IMG/VR virus record: IMGVR_UViG_3300036830_000158
Location: 1-63,581 of that record
DNA from: a virus
Direction: 5' to 3' (one strand)
DNA: 63,581 nt
Below are positions 53,671-62,604 of this stretch, piece by piece. Within the stretch, counting starts at the first letter, position 1. Each line of letters starts with the position of its first letter. Below the pieces are notes generated by a model. That model was not told where the DNA came from. It saw nothing but the letters and a program-made list of their open reading frames with translations, and did no database searches. The translations under genes were made by a program, and so were the position numbers.

Positions 53671-53940
53671 ATGTCGGAACGCCATTTGGCGGGCCGCGAT
53701 GTGCATAAATGTGCACACCGTCCGCATATATTTTTTGATCGGACCACCGATTTCGGTTCGAGCGGCTCCGATCCCGCCATTGCCACGGACGGTGCGGCTC
53801 CGTTCCGTACACAGACCTCTCGGCGCCCCATTCTCGGAGCCGTCATGGCCATGGCCGTCGGCATCGTCCTGGTGGTCGCGGTCTGGCTGCTCGGGTCTGC
53901 GGCCGTCGCGGTGTCGGGGTGGATCGGGGGGATGCTGTGA
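53671..53940 (+). CDS. Membrane protein partnered with the glycosyltransferase
   Basis: 89 aa: a polar N-terminus with His and Asp, then one hydrophobic helix (AVMAMAVGIVLVVAVWLLGS). Its stop overlaps the glycosyltransferase ATG (TGATG). It may anchor that enzyme. Operators stand directly before and inside its first codons. Confidence 0.55.
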   Translation: MSERHLAGRDVHKCAHRPHIFFDRTTDFGSSGSDPAIATDGAAPFRTQTSRRPILGAVMAMAVGIVLVVAVWLLGSAAVAVSGWIGGML

Positions 53941-54875
53941 TGCAGCGCGTGCTGATCGGGGTCTGCACATGCCTGCGTCCAAAAATGCTGGAGCGCTGTC
54001 TCGACAGTCTCGTTGAGCAGCTGTTCAGTTCCGATATCGTCGTCGAGACCATCGTCGTCGATAATGACCGTGATCCATCGGCGCGTGACGTGGTCCAGCG
54101 CATCGCGGGTCGATCCTGGCTCCCGCTCAAATACAAGCATGTCCGGCGGCGCGGCATTGCGATCGCCAGGAACGCCGTGCTGGATCACGCCAAATTACGG
54201 CATTGTTTCGATTGGGTCGCCTTCATCGATGACGATGAGGTCGCCGACCCGGATTGGATTGCGGCCCTGATGGCGCCGGAATATCGCGCCACCCCAGTGC
54301 TGATGGGACGGCAGGAGCTCATCTATCCGGACCCGTTGCCGTTCTGGGGGACGCGCCGCCAAAAGCCGCGACGGCGCGAAGGCGAGGCCGTGAAAACGGC
54401 GTATACCAACAATGTGCGATTCAGCACCGATCTGATCGGCGCGGGACTGCGCTTCAATGAAGCGCTCGGGCTCATGGGCGGCGAGGATCAGGAGTTTTTC
54501 ACCGAGGCCTACAAACGCGGCTTCCAGATCCGGCGCACCGAGCGCGCGATCACTCACGAAACGGTCCATGCCGAAAGGCTCACATATCGCGCCCAATTCG
54601 GCCGCGCTTACTGGTGTGCGGCATCAAACCTGCGCCGGCTGGCCGTCGACAGAGGCTGGCTGCGCGCGGGACTGATCAAGGCGCATACGGTGCCGATCAG
54701 CATTGTCTTCGGCGCGCTTGAAGTCCTGGCGAGTCCGCTTTTCATCGCTGGCGGCGTGACGACGTTCAAGCGGCGAGCGCTCGCCGGCGGCAAGAAGATT
54801 GCCAAAGGGCTAGGACGGGCGACAGCCATGACTGGATGCCTGCCAAGGCCGTATCTGCATGTGGTGGGGGAATGA
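53940..54875 (+). CDS. Family 2 glycosyltransferase
   Basis: 311 aa from the ATG at 53940. A GT-A fold: VLIGVCTCLRPKMLERCLDS at the start, VVDNDRDPSARDVV, RGIAIARNAVLDHAK, then VAFIDDDEVADPDWI with the DxD-like metal site. The acceptor region FNEALGLMGGEDQEFFTEAY has the ED motif, and two hydrophobic C-terminal helices suggest membrane contact. Temperate phages use such enzymes to change lipopolysaccharide and block superinfection (seroconversion). Confidence 0.8.
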   Translation: MQRVLIGVCTCLRPKMLERCLDSLVEQLFSSDIVVETIVVDNDRDPSARDVVQRIAGRSWLPLKYKHVRRRGIAIARNAVLDHAKLRHCFDWVAFIDDDEVADPDWIAALMAPEYRATPVLMGRQELIYPDPLPFWGTRRQKPRRREGEAVKTAYTNNVRFSTDLIGAGLRFNEALGLMGGEDQEFFTEAYKRGFQIRRTERAITHETVHAERLTYRAQFGRAYWCAASNLRRLAVDRGWLRAGLIKAHTVPISIVFGALEVLASPLFIAGGVTTFKRRALAGGKKIAKGLGRATAMTGCLPRPYLHVVGE

Positions 54876-57048: not shown

Positions 57049-57325
57049 CACTGATCTTTGCCCGGACCTTGAGGGCGTCGACCGGGAACGCCCCGGCGAC
57101 ATCCTGACGATCTTGATCGGCTACCCGGCGATGCTCGCCGCCATTTTCGCAGCGCTCTACAACGCGGAGACGCTTATCTGGAAATGGGTCGTGCTGCTCT
57201 GCGCCGGCTTCATGATTGCCCGGTTCGGTAATCTGCTTGCCCAGGACAAAGCCCGTATCGATCGTAATATCGAGCGGCTCCATCGCGAAATTCGGCGCAG
57301 AACGGAGCAGAACGGAGATGGCTGA
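57041..57325 (+). CDS. Two-span membrane protein of the CRISPR operon
   Basis: 94 aa from the ATG at 57041. After an acidic N-terminus it has two hydrophobic helices (ILTILIGYPAMLAAIFAALY and IWKWVVLLCAGFMIARFG), then a basic helical tail (DKARIDRNIERLHREIRRRT). It overlaps the Cas12-like gene by 8 bases. It may anchor or sense at the membrane for the CRISPR module. No known cas family matches. Confidence 0.6.
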   Translation: MSDTDLCPDLEGVDRERPGDILTILIGYPAMLAAIFAALYNAETLIWKWVVLLCAGFMIARFGNLLAQDKARIDRNIERLHREIRRRTEQNGDG

Positions 57326-59339
57326 TCAGTCAACAATAATGCGAATGCGCGGCACAGAGATCCGTTGCTATCCTTCGAAGAGCAAGCAGCGCAAGCTTGC
57401 ACGCTGGTGTGCGCGATCCACCCAGCTCTGGAACCTCATGCTCGATCTGCAAAAGGCCGCCTATAGCGGCGAGAACCGCTGGTCTGGCCTCGCTTGGCGG
57501 CCGATGTGGGCGCAAATCGTTAAGGACGATTATGTCGAGGCTGAGCGCATCTACCGCGACGGCAAGCGGGCCGCAGACAAGACCGTCAAGGGGCTGGTCG
57601 TTCCAGGCAAGATCATCAAGGAGCCAGGTGTCGGGCGCGAGGAAGAACGTGAAGAGCTCAAGGCCAGGTTGAAACAATTGGAGACGGAAAAGAAGAAAAA
57701 AACGCCGGAATTCCAAGCCGTCAAAGACAGCATAAATCGTATCGCGCCCAAACCGGAGCCGGTCGATCCGGCCTATCTCGAAAAGATTTTCTGGCATTGG
57801 CGTCCAAGCGGATTGCCATTGGAGGACGATCTGATGTTCGGCCTGTTCGCCGGCGTCCGGGAAGCGCTGCGCGGCGGCGGATGCCAGCATACCCATCGGC
57901 ATGCGCTGGCATGGTTGACCCGGAAAAAGCTCGCGGGCGACGTGGAGACGATCATCAGCTGGCTGAAGGAGCATGGTGGCGCTTGCGATTGCCAGGTGGT
58001 GGAAACCGCCGCCAAGGCGGCCCAGGAGACCGCCAAGACGAACCGGCCGGGTATTTTCATACCCGTCCTGACGCTGCAAAAGATTATGGCGCGGTTGAAA
58101 CGGGTCAAGCAATCCGAATGGATCGGCGATCTGCCAAGTCATGCCGCCCAGGCAGTCGTCAAGGACCTCGATCGCGCCATCGGCAATATGCTGCGCGAAC
58201 GCGGCAAAGTCGCCCGCGGCGAACCAAGCCGCAAGACCGGATTCCCGCGTCGCAAGCGCGCTGCCGACGGGTCGGTCTATCTGCCGAACACGACAGTGTT
58301 CTGGAATTTCCTGGCCAATGGCGTCAAGTTGCCGAATGGCGTCGGCACGATCTTTTATGAGCCGAAAGCATTGCGCAAGGTGCGGCGGGAGGCCGAAGAG
58401 CGCAAAGAGGAACGGCAATATAAGCAGGGCGCCGAAGTCGGCATGATCGGTGCGCGTATCTGGCGGCGCGGCCGGCAATGGTATCTGTCCGTGCAATGGC
58501 AGAGGCAGATCGAGCAACTGCCGCAGACGGGTCGCACAGCCGGCGTCAAGGTCAATGCGTCGATCCCGATTACTGTCTATGAGGATCGCCGGCCGATCAA
58601 AGAATATCCGATGCCACCCGTCGATGCAAAGTTGGCGGCTGCACACAAGGAAGTCTGCAGGGCGGTTTCCAGAACGCTGGATGTGCAAAAAAAACGCGAA
58701 GAGAAACTCACGCGCCGCAAACGGTGGCAGCGCCAGCGCGCCGCCGACGCCGGCAAGATCATCGCACCGATGGAAGCTGCTCGATTGCGGCGCAGCCGTG
58801 GCTTCCACCAGGCCAAGGACGAGATCGCGCGGCTGGAGAAGATTGACCAGGGAGCGCGCGACGACTTCATCCACGATGCGACAACCAAAATCGTCCGGCT
58901 CTTCGACGCCATCGCGGTGCAGAAAATGGACGTCGCCGGAATGATGAAAGACCGCGATGGCAAATTGGAAAAACGGCATGAACGTCGCCGCAAGCGGCAT
59001 GAAGGCAAGCCACGGCGGCAAGCAGGCCTGAAGATCGCCCGCAAAATGATGCGGCGTGCGGCCATGGCTCGGATCGTCTCGGTGCTGCAATACAAGTTCA
59101 CCGATCTGCGCGGCGAAGACAGTTTCCACGAGATCGACAAGCACGACGCCAATGCCTGTGTTTGCTCACGCTGCGGCACGATCCATCCCGATTGGCAGGA
59201 CGGCCGCAGAATCGTGCGCTGCAACGCCGTGCTGCCCGATGGAAGCACTTGCGGCAACGAGCTCGGGCGCGCCGCCAACGCGGCGCGTGTCAGCAAGCGC
59301 GAGCTGGATGCCCGGAAGAGAAAAGAAACCGCAATGTGA
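57318..59339 (+). CDS. Miniature Cas12/TnpB-like effector with degenerate RuvC site
   Basis: 673 aa from the ATG at 57318, which overlaps the previous stop like the other operon junctions; Met8 is another possible start. The N-terminal about 400 residues are helical and basic with an opening (RGTEIRCYPSKSKQRKLARW) like TnpB and small type V effectors. RuvC-I is GVKVNASIPITV (Lys411 where Asp is catalytic), RuvC-II is DAIAVQKMDVAGM (Gln535 for Glu), and RuvC-III is LGRAANAA (Gly650/Ala652 for Asp). The zinc ribbon is intact: C616/C619 and C635/C645. All three carboxylates are thus replaced, so DNA cutting is unlikely and guide-directed binding is likely. Closest in idea to Cas12m (type V-M), which binds without cutting; exact subtype not assignable by eye. 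Confidence 0.8.
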   Translation: MADQSTIMRMRGTEIRCYPSKSKQRKLARWCARSTQLWNLMLDLQKAAYSGENRWSGLAWRPMWAQIVKDDYVEAERIYRDGKRAADKTVKGLVVPGKIIKEPGVGREEEREELKARLKQLETEKKKKTPEFQAVKDSINRIAPKPEPVDPAYLEKIFWHWRPSGLPLEDDLMFGLFAGVREALRGGGCQHTHRHALAWLTRKKLAGDVETIISWLKEHGGACDCQVVETAAKAAQETAKTNRPGIFIPVLTLQKIMARLKRVKQSEWIGDLPSHAAQAVVKDLDRAIGNMLRERGKVARGEPSRKTGFPRRKRAADGSVYLPNTTVFWNFLANGVKLPNGVGTIFYEPKALRKVRREAEERKEERQYKQGAEVGMIGARIWRRGRQWYLSVQWQRQIEQLPQTGRTAGVKVNASIPITVYEDRRPIKEYPMPPVDAKLAAAHKEVCRAVSRTLDVQKKREEKLTRRKRWQRQRAADAGKIIAPMEAARLRRSRGFHQAKDEIARLEKIDQGARDDFIHDATTKIVRLFDAIAVQKMDVAGMMKDRDGKLEKRHERRRKRHEGKPRRQAGLKIARKMMRRAAMARIVSVLQYKFTDLRGEDSFHEIDKHDANACVCSRCGTIHPDWQDGRRIVRCNAVLPDGSTCGNELGRAANAARVSKRELDARKRKETAM

Positions 59340-59349
59340 GGAAGTTTCA

Positions 59350-59403
59350 ATGTTCGCTGCAATCTCATCGCTATCATCAAGAGCCATTATTGAGCCATCG
59401 TGA
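59350..59403 (+). CDS. 17-aa leader peptide coupled to cas1
   Basis: A strong GAGGAAG site precedes ATG at 59350; the frame MFAAISSLSSRAIIEPS ends at TGA 59401-59403, whose last base is the A of the cas1 ATG (TGATG). Cas1 itself has no good ribosome site, so translation of this peptide probably delivers ribosomes to cas1. Confidence 0.5.
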   Translation: MFAAISSLSSRAIIEPS

Positions 59404-60263
59404 TGCTTCCCGGACGTCTAGGTCTCGACAAGACCCGCATGCCTCACTCCGCGCGTCATGGCCTTCTTTGGCTCGATCGCGGCCGACTCGATGTCGAAGC
59501 CGGCTGCTTGCGCTTCACGACCGCTGGCGGCGCTCTTTCGGCGGGCGACTATCAGGTCCCGCAACAGGCTCTTTCCATGGTGCTGCTGGGGCCAGGATCG
59601 AGCGTCACGCATGATGCGCTCCGGCTGCTGGCCCACCAGGGAACGGGATTGGCCGCGATCGGCGAGGGTGGCGTTCGTCTCTATACCGCGCCGCCGTTGA
59701 TGGCTGCGACCTCGGCGCTGGCCAGGCGCCAGGCGGAACTTTGGGCGCGCCAGATATCGCGGATCGCCGTTGCTCGAAAGATGTATGCGCTTCGCCTCGG
59801 TGAGATCCTGCCGCATCGTGATATCGAAGTTTTGCGGGGCATCGAGGGCTCGCATGTCAAAGAGGCTTACAAGCGAGTCGCCGAAGAGTTCGGCGTCGAA
59901 TGGCGTGGACGGCGATACGACCGTGGCAATCCACAGGCGGCTGACCCGCCGAATCAGGCGATCAACCACGCGTCGAGCGCTGTGGTCGCGGCGGCTTCGA
60001 TAGCGGTTGCCGCGATGGCCGTAATCCCGCAGCTCGGCTTCGTCCACGAAGATTCCTCGCAGGCGTTCGTCCTCGACATTGCCGATCTCTTTCGCGATGA
60101 AGTGACGCTGCGCATCGCCTTTGGAGCGGTCAACGAGGCCAAGAGCAGCCAACGAACGCTTGAGCAACTCGTGCGCCGTCACGCCAATGCGATATTCGCG
60201 AAGACCGACCTCATTCCAACCATGATCGATCGCATCAAGACGCTATTGGAGGCGCCGCCATGA
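59400..60263 (+). CDS. cas1: CRISPR integrase Cas1, type I-E character
   Basis: 287 aa (GTG at 59400, or ATG at 59403). Cas1 inserts new spacers with Cas2. It follows the E. coli Cas1e pattern: ALSMVLLGPGSSVTHDALRL, ARKMYALRLGE, LRGIEGSHVKEAYKRVAEEF, GVEWRGRRYD, then LGFVHEDSSQAFVLDIADLF. Active-site residues are in place: Glu149, His216 and Asp229. It is close to full length, lacking only the Pro-rich tail of E. coli Cas1. The start overlaps the leader peptide, and the stop overlaps cas2 by four bases (ATGA). The catalytic residues argue for an active adaptation module. Confidence 0.92.
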   Translation: MMLPGRLGLDKTRMPHSARHGLLWLDRGRLDVEAGCLRFTTAGGALSAGDYQVPQQALSMVLLGPGSSVTHDALRLLAHQGTGLAAIGEGGVRLYTAPPLMAATSALARRQAELWARQISRIAVARKMYALRLGEILPHRDIEVLRGIEGSHVKEAYKRVAEEFGVEWRGRRYDRGNPQAADPPNQAINHASSAVVAAASIAVAAMAVIPQLGFVHEDSSQAFVLDIADLFRDEVTLRIAFGAVNEAKSSQRTLEQLVRRHANAIFAKTDLIPTMIDRIKTLLEAPP

Positions 60264-60565
60264 GCCTGACCATCGTCATCACACGCGACGTGCAGGATCG
60301 GTATCGCGGCTATCTTCGGTCGGCGATGCTGGAGGTCGACGCTGGCGTTTACGTCAGTTCGCGGCTCAATCGTGACGTGCGCGATAGGTTATGGGATGTA
60401 TTGGCGGAATGGTTCGGCGTGCTGTCGCGCGGTTCTATTGTTATGATCTGGCGCGATCGCGACGCGGCGTCGAATATCGGGATGAAGACGCTAGGCATTC
60501 CGAGACGAGAAATTGCAGATGTTGATGATTTACTCTTGACACGACGTGAATTGTCATCCAAATAA
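60260..60565 (+). CDS. cas2: Cas2, type I-E character
   Basis: 101 aa. Cas2 dimers bridge two Cas1 dimers and hold the incoming spacer. The opening SLTIVITRDVQDRYRGYLRS and the segment LEVDAGVYVSSRLNRDVRDR-LWDVL are the Cas2e (CasE-operon) type, not the general Cas2 family, and IVMIWRDRDAASNIGMKTLG is the second core strand. It is followed directly by the array leader. Confidence 0.92.
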   Translation: MSLTIVITRDVQDRYRGYLRSAMLEVDAGVYVSSRLNRDVRDRLWDVLAEWFGVLSRGSIVMIWRDRDAASNIGMKTLGIPRREIADVDDLLLTRRELSSK

Positions 60566-60819
60566 GCTTCACTGCCTTCGGGTGGTCTAGGGTTTGTCTA
60601 AACCCGACGTTAAGCCCGCCTCGGTCGCTCGCGTGAGGGCGCCGGGGCTGCCGAAGTAAGTCCCGTGTTTCCAGCGGGCCACGGCATCTGAGCGCCCTCT
60701 GTCGGCGGAACCCATCTGGGGTCTACGAGACATGGCGGTGCGGGGGGAACCTTCGCAGGCTTCGGCCGACCGACCGCTCTTTGAAATTGTGGATGGGCGA
60801 CAGCGACTTAGCGGCTAGA
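60566..60819 (+). promoter_or_regulatory. CRISPR leader
   Basis: 254 bases from the cas2 stop to the first repeat. It should contain the array promoter and the integration signals used by Cas1-Cas2. The far end of the array carries the broken repeat, so new spacers enter here. It is G+C-rich and strongly structured (separate entry). A degenerate repeat-like string GGTCGC-TC-GCGTGAGGG occurs at about 60623-60639. Confidence 0.65.
60581..60702 (+). ncRNA. Structured RNA candidate in the leader
   Basis: A hairpin GTC-TA-GGGTTT-GTCT-AAACCC-GAC (60585-60608) is followed by a long-range 8-bp perfect stem GAGGGCGC/GCGCCCTC (60635-60642 with 60692-60699) that encloses TGCCG/CGGCA (60649-60653, 60682-60686) and CCCG/CGGG (60662-60665, 60675-60678). 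The nested helices look like a folded RNA. It could be a tracrRNA/scoutRNA-like partner of the Cas12-like protein or an untranslated leader. No clear anti-repeat was found. Confidence 0.4.
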
Positions 60820-62604
60820 GGTCGCCCCAAGCGTGCGAGGGGAGACGGGGGCTCGGCATCGATGATGCCAGGAAGTTGCAGGTCGCCCCAAGCGTGCGAG
60901 GGGAGACGCAGAAGGGCCCTGAAAAACGCCCTGAAACGGCGGGTCGCCCCAAGCGTGCGAGGGGAGACGAAATTCCAGGAGCGCGTCGGCCTGACAGGCC
61001 CTGGTCGCCCCAAGCGTGCGAGGGGAGACGCCGCCGCGAATTGCGTTCCGCGATTTTCCGCTGGGTCGCCCCAAGCGTGCGAGGGGAGACGGCAGTCAAA
61101 ACCATCGCGGTCCGAGCAGAATTTGGTCGCCCCAAGCGTGCGAGGGGAGACGCCATCTATCCAAATCGGACGGTTGCCCGCTCTCGGTCGCCCCAAGCGT
61201 GCGAGGGGAGACGGCGCCGGAACCGAGCTTCTATTGAGGCCTGTGCGGTCGCCCCAAGCGTGCGAGGGGAGACGGTTTGGAGGCAATCGCCGCGAAAGCA
61301 TCATCCGGGTCGCCCCAAGCGTGCGAGGGGAGACGGGATTTCGATCTGCATGCTGCGGCCGAGGGCATGGTCGCCCCAAGCGTGCGAGGGGAGACGGGGT
61401 TGATTCCGCCCCTGCCCCGCAAAAAATCGGGTCGCCCCAAGCGTGCGAGGGGAGACGTTTTCCGACCGTGACTCTCCTTTAATAGCACCTGGTCGCCCCA
61501 AGCGTGCGAGGGGAGACGCTACGATGCTCGTTTCGGTCGACGTTCCAGGCAGGTCGCCCCAAGCGTGCGAGGGGAGACGCGGTCATGTCATTTTGGGTGC
61601 TGCCAAGCCGGGGGTCGCCCCAAGCGTGCGAGGGGAGACGTTGAATCGTTGGGCGAGCGACGGCCGACTGCCGGGTCGCCCCAAGCGTGCGAGGGGAGAC
61701 GTCGTTATGGCGTTCCATGATTGAGCTGGATCATGGTCGCCCCAAGCGTGCGAGGGGAGACGACATTTTATTGCGTTTTCTTATATGTAGCGTCTGGTCG
61801 CCCCAAGCGTGCGAGGGGAGACGTTGCGCAGAATACATAAGCGCGACCTCTGACCGGGTCGCCCCAAGCGTGCGAGGGGAGACGCCTCAGACGATAGGGT
61901 GTACGCGATGAGCGGCGGGTCGCCCCAAGCGTGCGAGGGGAGACGGCGATTCTGATCGGGATGGACCAGCATATCCTGGGTCGCCCCAAGCGTGCGAGGG
62001 GAGACGAAGTCGAGAGGCGCCTTAGGTTTCGTTGGCCGCGGTCGCCCCAAGCGTGCGAGGGGAGACGTTTCAGACGGCATGACGTGGCTCTGAAGTCACA
62101 GGTCGCCCCAAGCGTGCGAGGGGAGACGTCAAAATCCGCGAGCACGCCGCGTTCCTCGAAAGGTCGCCCCAAGCGTGCGAGGGGAGACGGCGGTCAGCTA
62201 CGAGCCGAGGAAGTGGGAAGCTGGTCGCCCCAAGCGTGCGAGGGGAGACGACTGTATCTTCGTCCTTCACGGCCTGATTTTTCGGTCGCCCCAAGCGTGC
62301 GAGGGGAGACGGTGGTTTGAATGCGAACGTCCGCTCCCCCGGGCGGTCGCCCCAAGCGTGCGAGGGGAGACGTTTCAGACGGCATGACGTGGCTCTGAAG
62401 TCACAGGTCGCCCCAAGCGTGCGAGGGGAGACGGAGGCGATTATCATCCCGCAAACGAGCTTACCTGGTCGCCCCAAGCGTGCGAGGGGAGACGTTTTGT
62501 CGTACTTCGATGCCATGGGGCATGCCGGGTCGCCCCAAGCGTGCGAGGGGAGACGTAGTATAGGGCGGCGATGTCTGTGATGGACATCGGTCGCAGGGGA
62601 GACG
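60820..62604 (+). CRISPR. CRISPR array, 29 full repeats plus one broken repeat, 29 spacers
   Basis: Each repeat is 28 bases beginning GGTCGCCCC and ending GGGGAGACG, with a 10-base loop between the CCCC and GGGG stem arms. Spacers are all 33 bases, and every unit measured is 61 bases, as in type I-E arrays. The repeats are perfect from 60820 to 62555. The last one (62589-62604) lacks 12 internal bases, which marks the leader-distal end. Spacers 21 and 26 (62068 and 62373) are identical. The array sits next to cas1-cas2 and is read in the same direction. Spacer targets cannot be named from this window. Confidence 0.98.

Follow-up and report, generated by a model that had tools for sequence, protein, structure and literature searches.

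A phage-borne CRISPR locus with a Cas12-like effector

The window analysed here is a virus record from IMG/VR, 63,581 bases long, with a CRISPR locus near its right end and, elsewhere, phage genes for a head closure protein, a primase/polymerase-like protein, a ribonucleotide reductase, an integrase, and YqaJ and RecT recombination proteins; the stretch from the integrase to the CRISPR locus includes a family 2 glycosyltransferase gene (53919–54875). On the + strand, a gene for a 673-residue Cas12-like, TnpB/V-F-like effector (57318–59339) is followed by an I-E-type cas1 (59400–60263; TIGR03638 cas1_ECOLI, E = 3e-90; PADLOC Cas1e, 3e-140) and an I-E-type cas2 (60260–60565; TIGR01873, E = 1e-23; PADLOC Cas2e, 2e-40). 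The cas2 stop at 60565 and the start of the first 28-nt repeat at 60820 delimit a 254-nt gap, which ends in a CRISPR leader (TCTTTGAAA...CTAGA; 60778–60819) that adjoins the first repeat. The array itself (60820–62555, + strand) holds 29 identical 28-nt repeats and 33-nt spacers. One spacer occurs twice, at 62068–62100 and 62373–62405, five units apart, with different spacers in between, and a 16-nt shortened repeat (GGTCGC-AGGGGAGACG), from the middle of which 12 nt have apparently been lost, marks the array end at 62589–62604. Searches for protospacers gave no credible match in phages, in plasmids or, with two spacer seeds only, in viral contigs.

The effector is related to the V-F/V-U profiles: in PADLOC it matches Cas12_x2 (an unnamed V-F-type model; 5e-158), Cas12u4 (6e-16) and Cas12f (1e-13). 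Its sequence matches among solved structures are TnpB and TranC proteins; Cas12m and Cas12k are absent among these PDB matches, Cas12m is likewise absent among the profile matches, and Cas12c and Cas12d were not matched in profile searches. Marginal profile matches to unrelated chains (E ∼0.3) were dismissed as chance. Foldseek matches to Cas12 and TnpB chains serve only as support, because the AlphaFold model of the effector with which they were obtained has low confidence (pLDDT 52.8). When the effector is aligned by hhalign to three TnpB proteins (probability 99.3), the TnpB residues D185, E269 and D351, which are invariant in the three TnpBs compared and are the RuvC catalytic acids, fall on K411, Q535 and A652. 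The relatives that cover these sites have no acidic residue at any of them: K stands in place of the first acid, Q in place of the second (P in L009), and A, T or N in place of the third. All three catalytic acids are thus replaced, and the RuvC nuclease is apparently dead. The effector also contains a DUF2695 domain (Pfam, E = 5e-11) at residues 176–228 (window 57843–58001); among the relatives, L011 seemingly has one such segment, L007 has two, and L004, L005 and L008 have none. In the effector of L006, the zinc-finger cysteines are lost too.

Searches of viral contigs with the effector and Cas1 yielded eight further contigs, giving a comparison set of nine sequences in about four clades, all drawn from a single collection of assembled viral contigs. 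One of them (L002) is a 99% identical sister of the window; in the other seven, identity is ∼43% for the effector and 69–74% for Cas1 where cas1 survives. The order effector-cas1-cas2-gap-array, or a decayed version of it, is common to the nine virus loci, with a gap of roughly 250–310 nt before the array in the relatives, and the leader is kept in all nine. The RuvC acids are absent across the effector family, yet cas1-cas2 and long arrays are kept in most members. In L011, cas1 and cas2 have been fused by an internal deletion (L011:6995-7269 is the fused gene), with 23 N-terminal residues of Cas1 joined to ∼72 C-terminal residues of Cas2. No relatives were found in two peptide-pattern scans of 84,980 bacterial and archaeal genomes, nor among INPHARED phages and PLSDB plasmids. 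The leader pattern recovered no contigs beyond these eight except a chance match lacking cas genes (L021), and one match from the Cas1 search (L018) proved to be an ordinary type I locus.

A conserved structured RNA in the gap

A sequence-only reading of the locus had placed a nested stem structure at 60581–60702, between cas2 and the array, and had suggested it as a possible partner RNA for the effector, akin to a tracrRNA or scoutRNA. Folded alone, this 122-nt interval has an energy that is not significant (z = -1.0 on the + strand and -1.9 on the - strand), so the significance of any structure there comes only from comparison with relatives. We therefore aligned the gap plus first repeat of the nine loci with MAFFT and derived a consensus structure with RNAalifold. 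It has 75 pairs, including a duplex between the repeat and an anti-repeat upstream of it, and both sides have changed in 36 of them. In a pruned set of 60 pairs, 92.5% of the alignment cells are paired, as against 42–47% when the partners are slid by 1–3 columns; double compensatory changes are found in 32 of the 60 pairs (shuffled mean 19.5, with none of 500 shuffles reaching 32), and the covariation score is 0.504, compared with 0.10–0.15 for the slid controls. The covariation that the earlier reading had proposed to look for in related loci is thus abundant.

Because this structure was derived from the same alignment in which it was scored, two further tests were run. The two hairpins within the interval, 60618–60648 and 60649–60686, were scored alone: 95.4% of their cells are paired (32–50% when slid), with double changes in 12 of 22 pairs, a number reached by 0 of 500 shuffles. 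A hold-out covariance model, built from only the seven distant relatives (∼43% effector identity) with the window left out, matches the window at 60606–60771 on the + strand with 75.8 bits and E = 3.7e-19, the next match within the window having E = 0.13. Paired positions contain 62 G-U cells and 9 A-C cells; since G-U is far above A-C, the counts favour a + strand RNA running in the same direction as the array, and an RNA from the minus strand was rejected. A conserved structured RNA therefore lies between cas2 and the array. A search of Rfam gave no credible match to it.

The predicted RNA is ∼200 nt long and extends over ∼60571–60771 (+ strand), as judged from RNAalifold, the pair counts and the hold-out model. 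Its helix 1 (60571–60586), from RNAalifold, has the loop TTCG (GAAG in some relatives), with the register ACTGCC/GGGTGGT read from the window sequence. Helix 2 (60590–60605), the GGGTTT/AAACCC hairpin pointed out in the sequence-only reading, is indeed present in the sequence; its length and sequence vary among relatives, and gaps in the alignment at this point keep it out of the RNAalifold consensus. A short helix predicted by RNAalifold to close a multibranch loop, CCC at 60615–60617 with GGG at 60744–60746, is almost invariant and for that reason carries no covariation evidence. Helix 3 (60618–60648) is the most variable hairpin, with double changes in 7 of 11 pairs; helix 4 (60649–60686), made up of an outer stem UGCCG/CGGCA and an inner stem (60662–60667 with 60673–60678), has 100% and 98% paired cells and double changes in 5 of 11 pairs. 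Helix 5 (60695–60735), also from RNAalifold and the pair counts, is a hairpin with an internal loop and its tip at 60711–60720. The anti-repeat (60750–60771), identified by energy and covariation, pairs with repeat positions 60820–60841.

The interval picked out from the sequence alone thus includes two conserved hairpins but stops short of the predicted extent of the element at both ends, with the anti-repeat, which starts ∼50 nt past 60702, falling outside. The same reading had described an 8-bp perfect long-range stem enclosing two further stems. The complementary arms GAGGGCGC (60635–60642) and GCGCCCTC (60692–60699) do exist, but a conserved, enclosing role for them did not hold up: the stem is unused in the minimum-energy fold of the + strand, its pairing is complete in no locus but the window and its sister L002, it gives no sign of covariation (only 60% of its cells are paired, 151 of 500 shuffles score as high, and one slid control higher), and its left arm falls within the conserved, covarying hairpin 60618–60648.

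Upstream of the RNA, a candidate -35 element, TTGACA, lies in the 3' end of cas2 (60536–60541, + strand), 35 nt before helix 1. TTGACA or TTGACG is found at the end of cas2, 34–36 nt before helix 1, in nine of nine loci, and this is the spacing expected between a -35 box and a start site. The motif encodes Leu-Thr near the C terminus of Cas2, but among the Leu codons of these genes TTG makes up only 8–25%. Although AT-rich, the -10 region is poor and non-consensus, and a general promoter scan listed no site here. The conserved position suggests TTGACR as the candidate -35 box of a promoter for the RNA.

The anti-repeat and the identity of the RNA

The anti-repeat at 60750–60771 pairs with the repeat over ∼20 positions at -33.5 kcal/mol, and nowhere within 57318–60820 does the repeat find a better partner than the sequence surrounding this segment (-35.2 kcal/mol). 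Taken alone, the energy in the window is unexceptional: against the whole gap, shuffled repeats equal it in 52 of 300 cases. Comparison among loci is more telling. Double changes are seen in 12 of the 20 anti-repeat:repeat pairs, and the co-variation can be followed by eye, with repeats that start GGTCG, GGCTG and GGTTC matched by CGACC, CAGCC and GAACC, respectively. When the anti-repeats of the eight distinct loci are assigned to repeats in all 40,320 ways, only two assignments, the real one included, give an energy sum equal to or better than that of each anti-repeat with its own repeat. L006 is an exception, its anti-repeat pairing better with the repeat of the sister locus L005 than with its own. 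Because the anti-repeat co-evolves with the repeat, and a conserved structured scaffold adjoins the effector and the array, we identify the element as a predicted tracrRNA with a hairpin scaffold and a 3' anti-repeat, and the earlier suggestion of a tracrRNA-like partner is borne out by the compensatory changes and the co-evolving anti-repeat. Finally, L011 retains the effector, the RNA, the leader and the array despite the loss of most of cas1-cas2, which ties the RNA to interference.

We considered three other explanations. The RNA and the dead effector could act as a decoy that sequesters host crRNAs, that is, as an anti-CRISPR, as has been proposed for phage Cas9 with an inactivated RuvC and a tracrRNA (PMC10910872, PMC11656645). 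The published precedent, together with the phage origin and apparently dead RuvC of the present effector, speaks for this idea, and the phage II-C2 Cas9 is likewise a phage-borne effector with an inactivated RuvC and its own tracrRNA; however, the II-C2 Cas9 is a type II protein without a CRISPR array (PMC10910872), whereas the present system is type V, and the phage has cas1-cas2 and its own 29-repeat array with spacers, whose repeat is the one that the anti-repeat matches. We regard a decoy as very unlikely.

Alternatively, the gap might be only a CRISPR leader, with DNA sites for Cas1-Cas2 and host integration factors and an array promoter, and have no RNA function, as its position directly upstream of the first repeat and beside I-E-type cas1-cas2, and the conserved leader motif at its end, would suggest. 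The leader motif, however, forms a separate 40-nt block (60778–60819), the compensatory changes preserve pairing within a single-stranded fold, G-U cells being far in excess of A-C cells, the anti-repeat tracks the repeat of each locus, and the element persists in L011 despite the deletion of most of cas1-cas2, so that we hold this explanation to be highly improbable. The location near cas genes and an array and the complex hairpins would also suit a scoutRNA, which in V-C and V-D aids crRNA maturation while matching the repeat over no more than a very short stretch and has Cas12c or Cas12d as its partner effector, but with pairing to the repeat that covers ∼20 positions rather than a few, 12 of them with double changes, and an effector that matches TnpB and V-F-like profiles and not Cas12c or Cas12d, this part of the earlier suggestion is disfavoured to the point of being scarcely credible.

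Relation to known systems and proposed mode of action

The predicted tracrRNA resembles those of V-F (Cas12f), V-B, V-E and V-K in having a 5' scaffold and a 3' anti-repeat and in being encoded beside the effector and array, and the small TnpB-like effector, with V-F models as its best profile matches, adds to the likeness with V-F. Unlike V-F and the other tracrRNA-using subtypes, the system has an effector that appears catalytically dead and adaptation genes of I-E type, and no Rfam relationship was found; with a dead RuvC, it falls outside canonical V-F, in which RuvC is an active nuclease. V-K has Tn7-like transposition genes beside Cas12k, and an assignment to it is unsupported, no tnsB, tnsC or tniQ being found among the ten flanking ORFs scanned (44–57 kb). 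A small effector with a degenerate RuvC is shared with V-M, whose Cas12m silences by binding and is found on mobile elements (PMC11656645, PMC11013384); Cas12m works with crRNA alone, a tracrRNA having been ruled out (PMC11013384), whereas an anti-repeat is present here, and V-M was therefore rejected. A 2025 classification names two inactivated type V subtypes, V-O and V-P, for which a block of transcription is predicted (Nat Microbiol 2025, PMC12669027), and the present system, likened to them by that description only, may be a member of one or the other.

In our view it is highly probable that the locus encodes a ∼200-nt tracrRNA that guides a nuclease-dead Cas12, most likely to bind targets without cutting them. 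The conserved structure, the strand preference, the co-evolution of anti-repeat and repeat, the replaced RuvC acids and the adjacent adaptation genes are the observed base of this reading; for transcription, protein binding, processing, silencing and the target, we draw on what is known of type V systems to propose how the RNA would act. The Cas12-like protein would bind to a scaffold formed by the 5' hairpins, and the 3' anti-repeat would pair in trans with the repeat in each pre-crRNA unit. Because tracrRNA, repeat and spacer follow one another on one strand, the anti-repeat could alternatively pair in cis, with the first repeat on its own transcript, so that the first unit would serve as a natural single guide. 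The effector would be loaded with the tracrRNA-crRNA duplex, which host RNase III, or else another nuclease of the host, would probably trim, and the complex would bind PAM-adjacent target DNA and block transcription or replication, an outcome of target binding that has been reported for V-M and V-C (PMC11013384, PMC12669027); since all three RuvC acids are lost, the complex most likely binds rather than cuts. New spacers would be acquired at the adjacent leader by the I-E-type Cas1-Cas2.

More tentatively, and with doubts that outweigh our confidence, we suggest that the nine loci may represent an undescribed, virus-restricted subtype that combines a dead Cas12, a tracrRNA and I-E-type Cas1-Cas2, acquires spacers for the phage and silences rivals or host genes through RNA-guided binding to DNA that is left uncut. 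With a predicted guide-RNA partner identified for this phage-borne, apparently cleavage-free CRISPR system, its reconstitution and testing become possible. The locus would also provide a natural case of a dead Cas12 retained together with an intact-looking adaptation module, through which the use of cleavage-free CRISPR by phages becomes testable.
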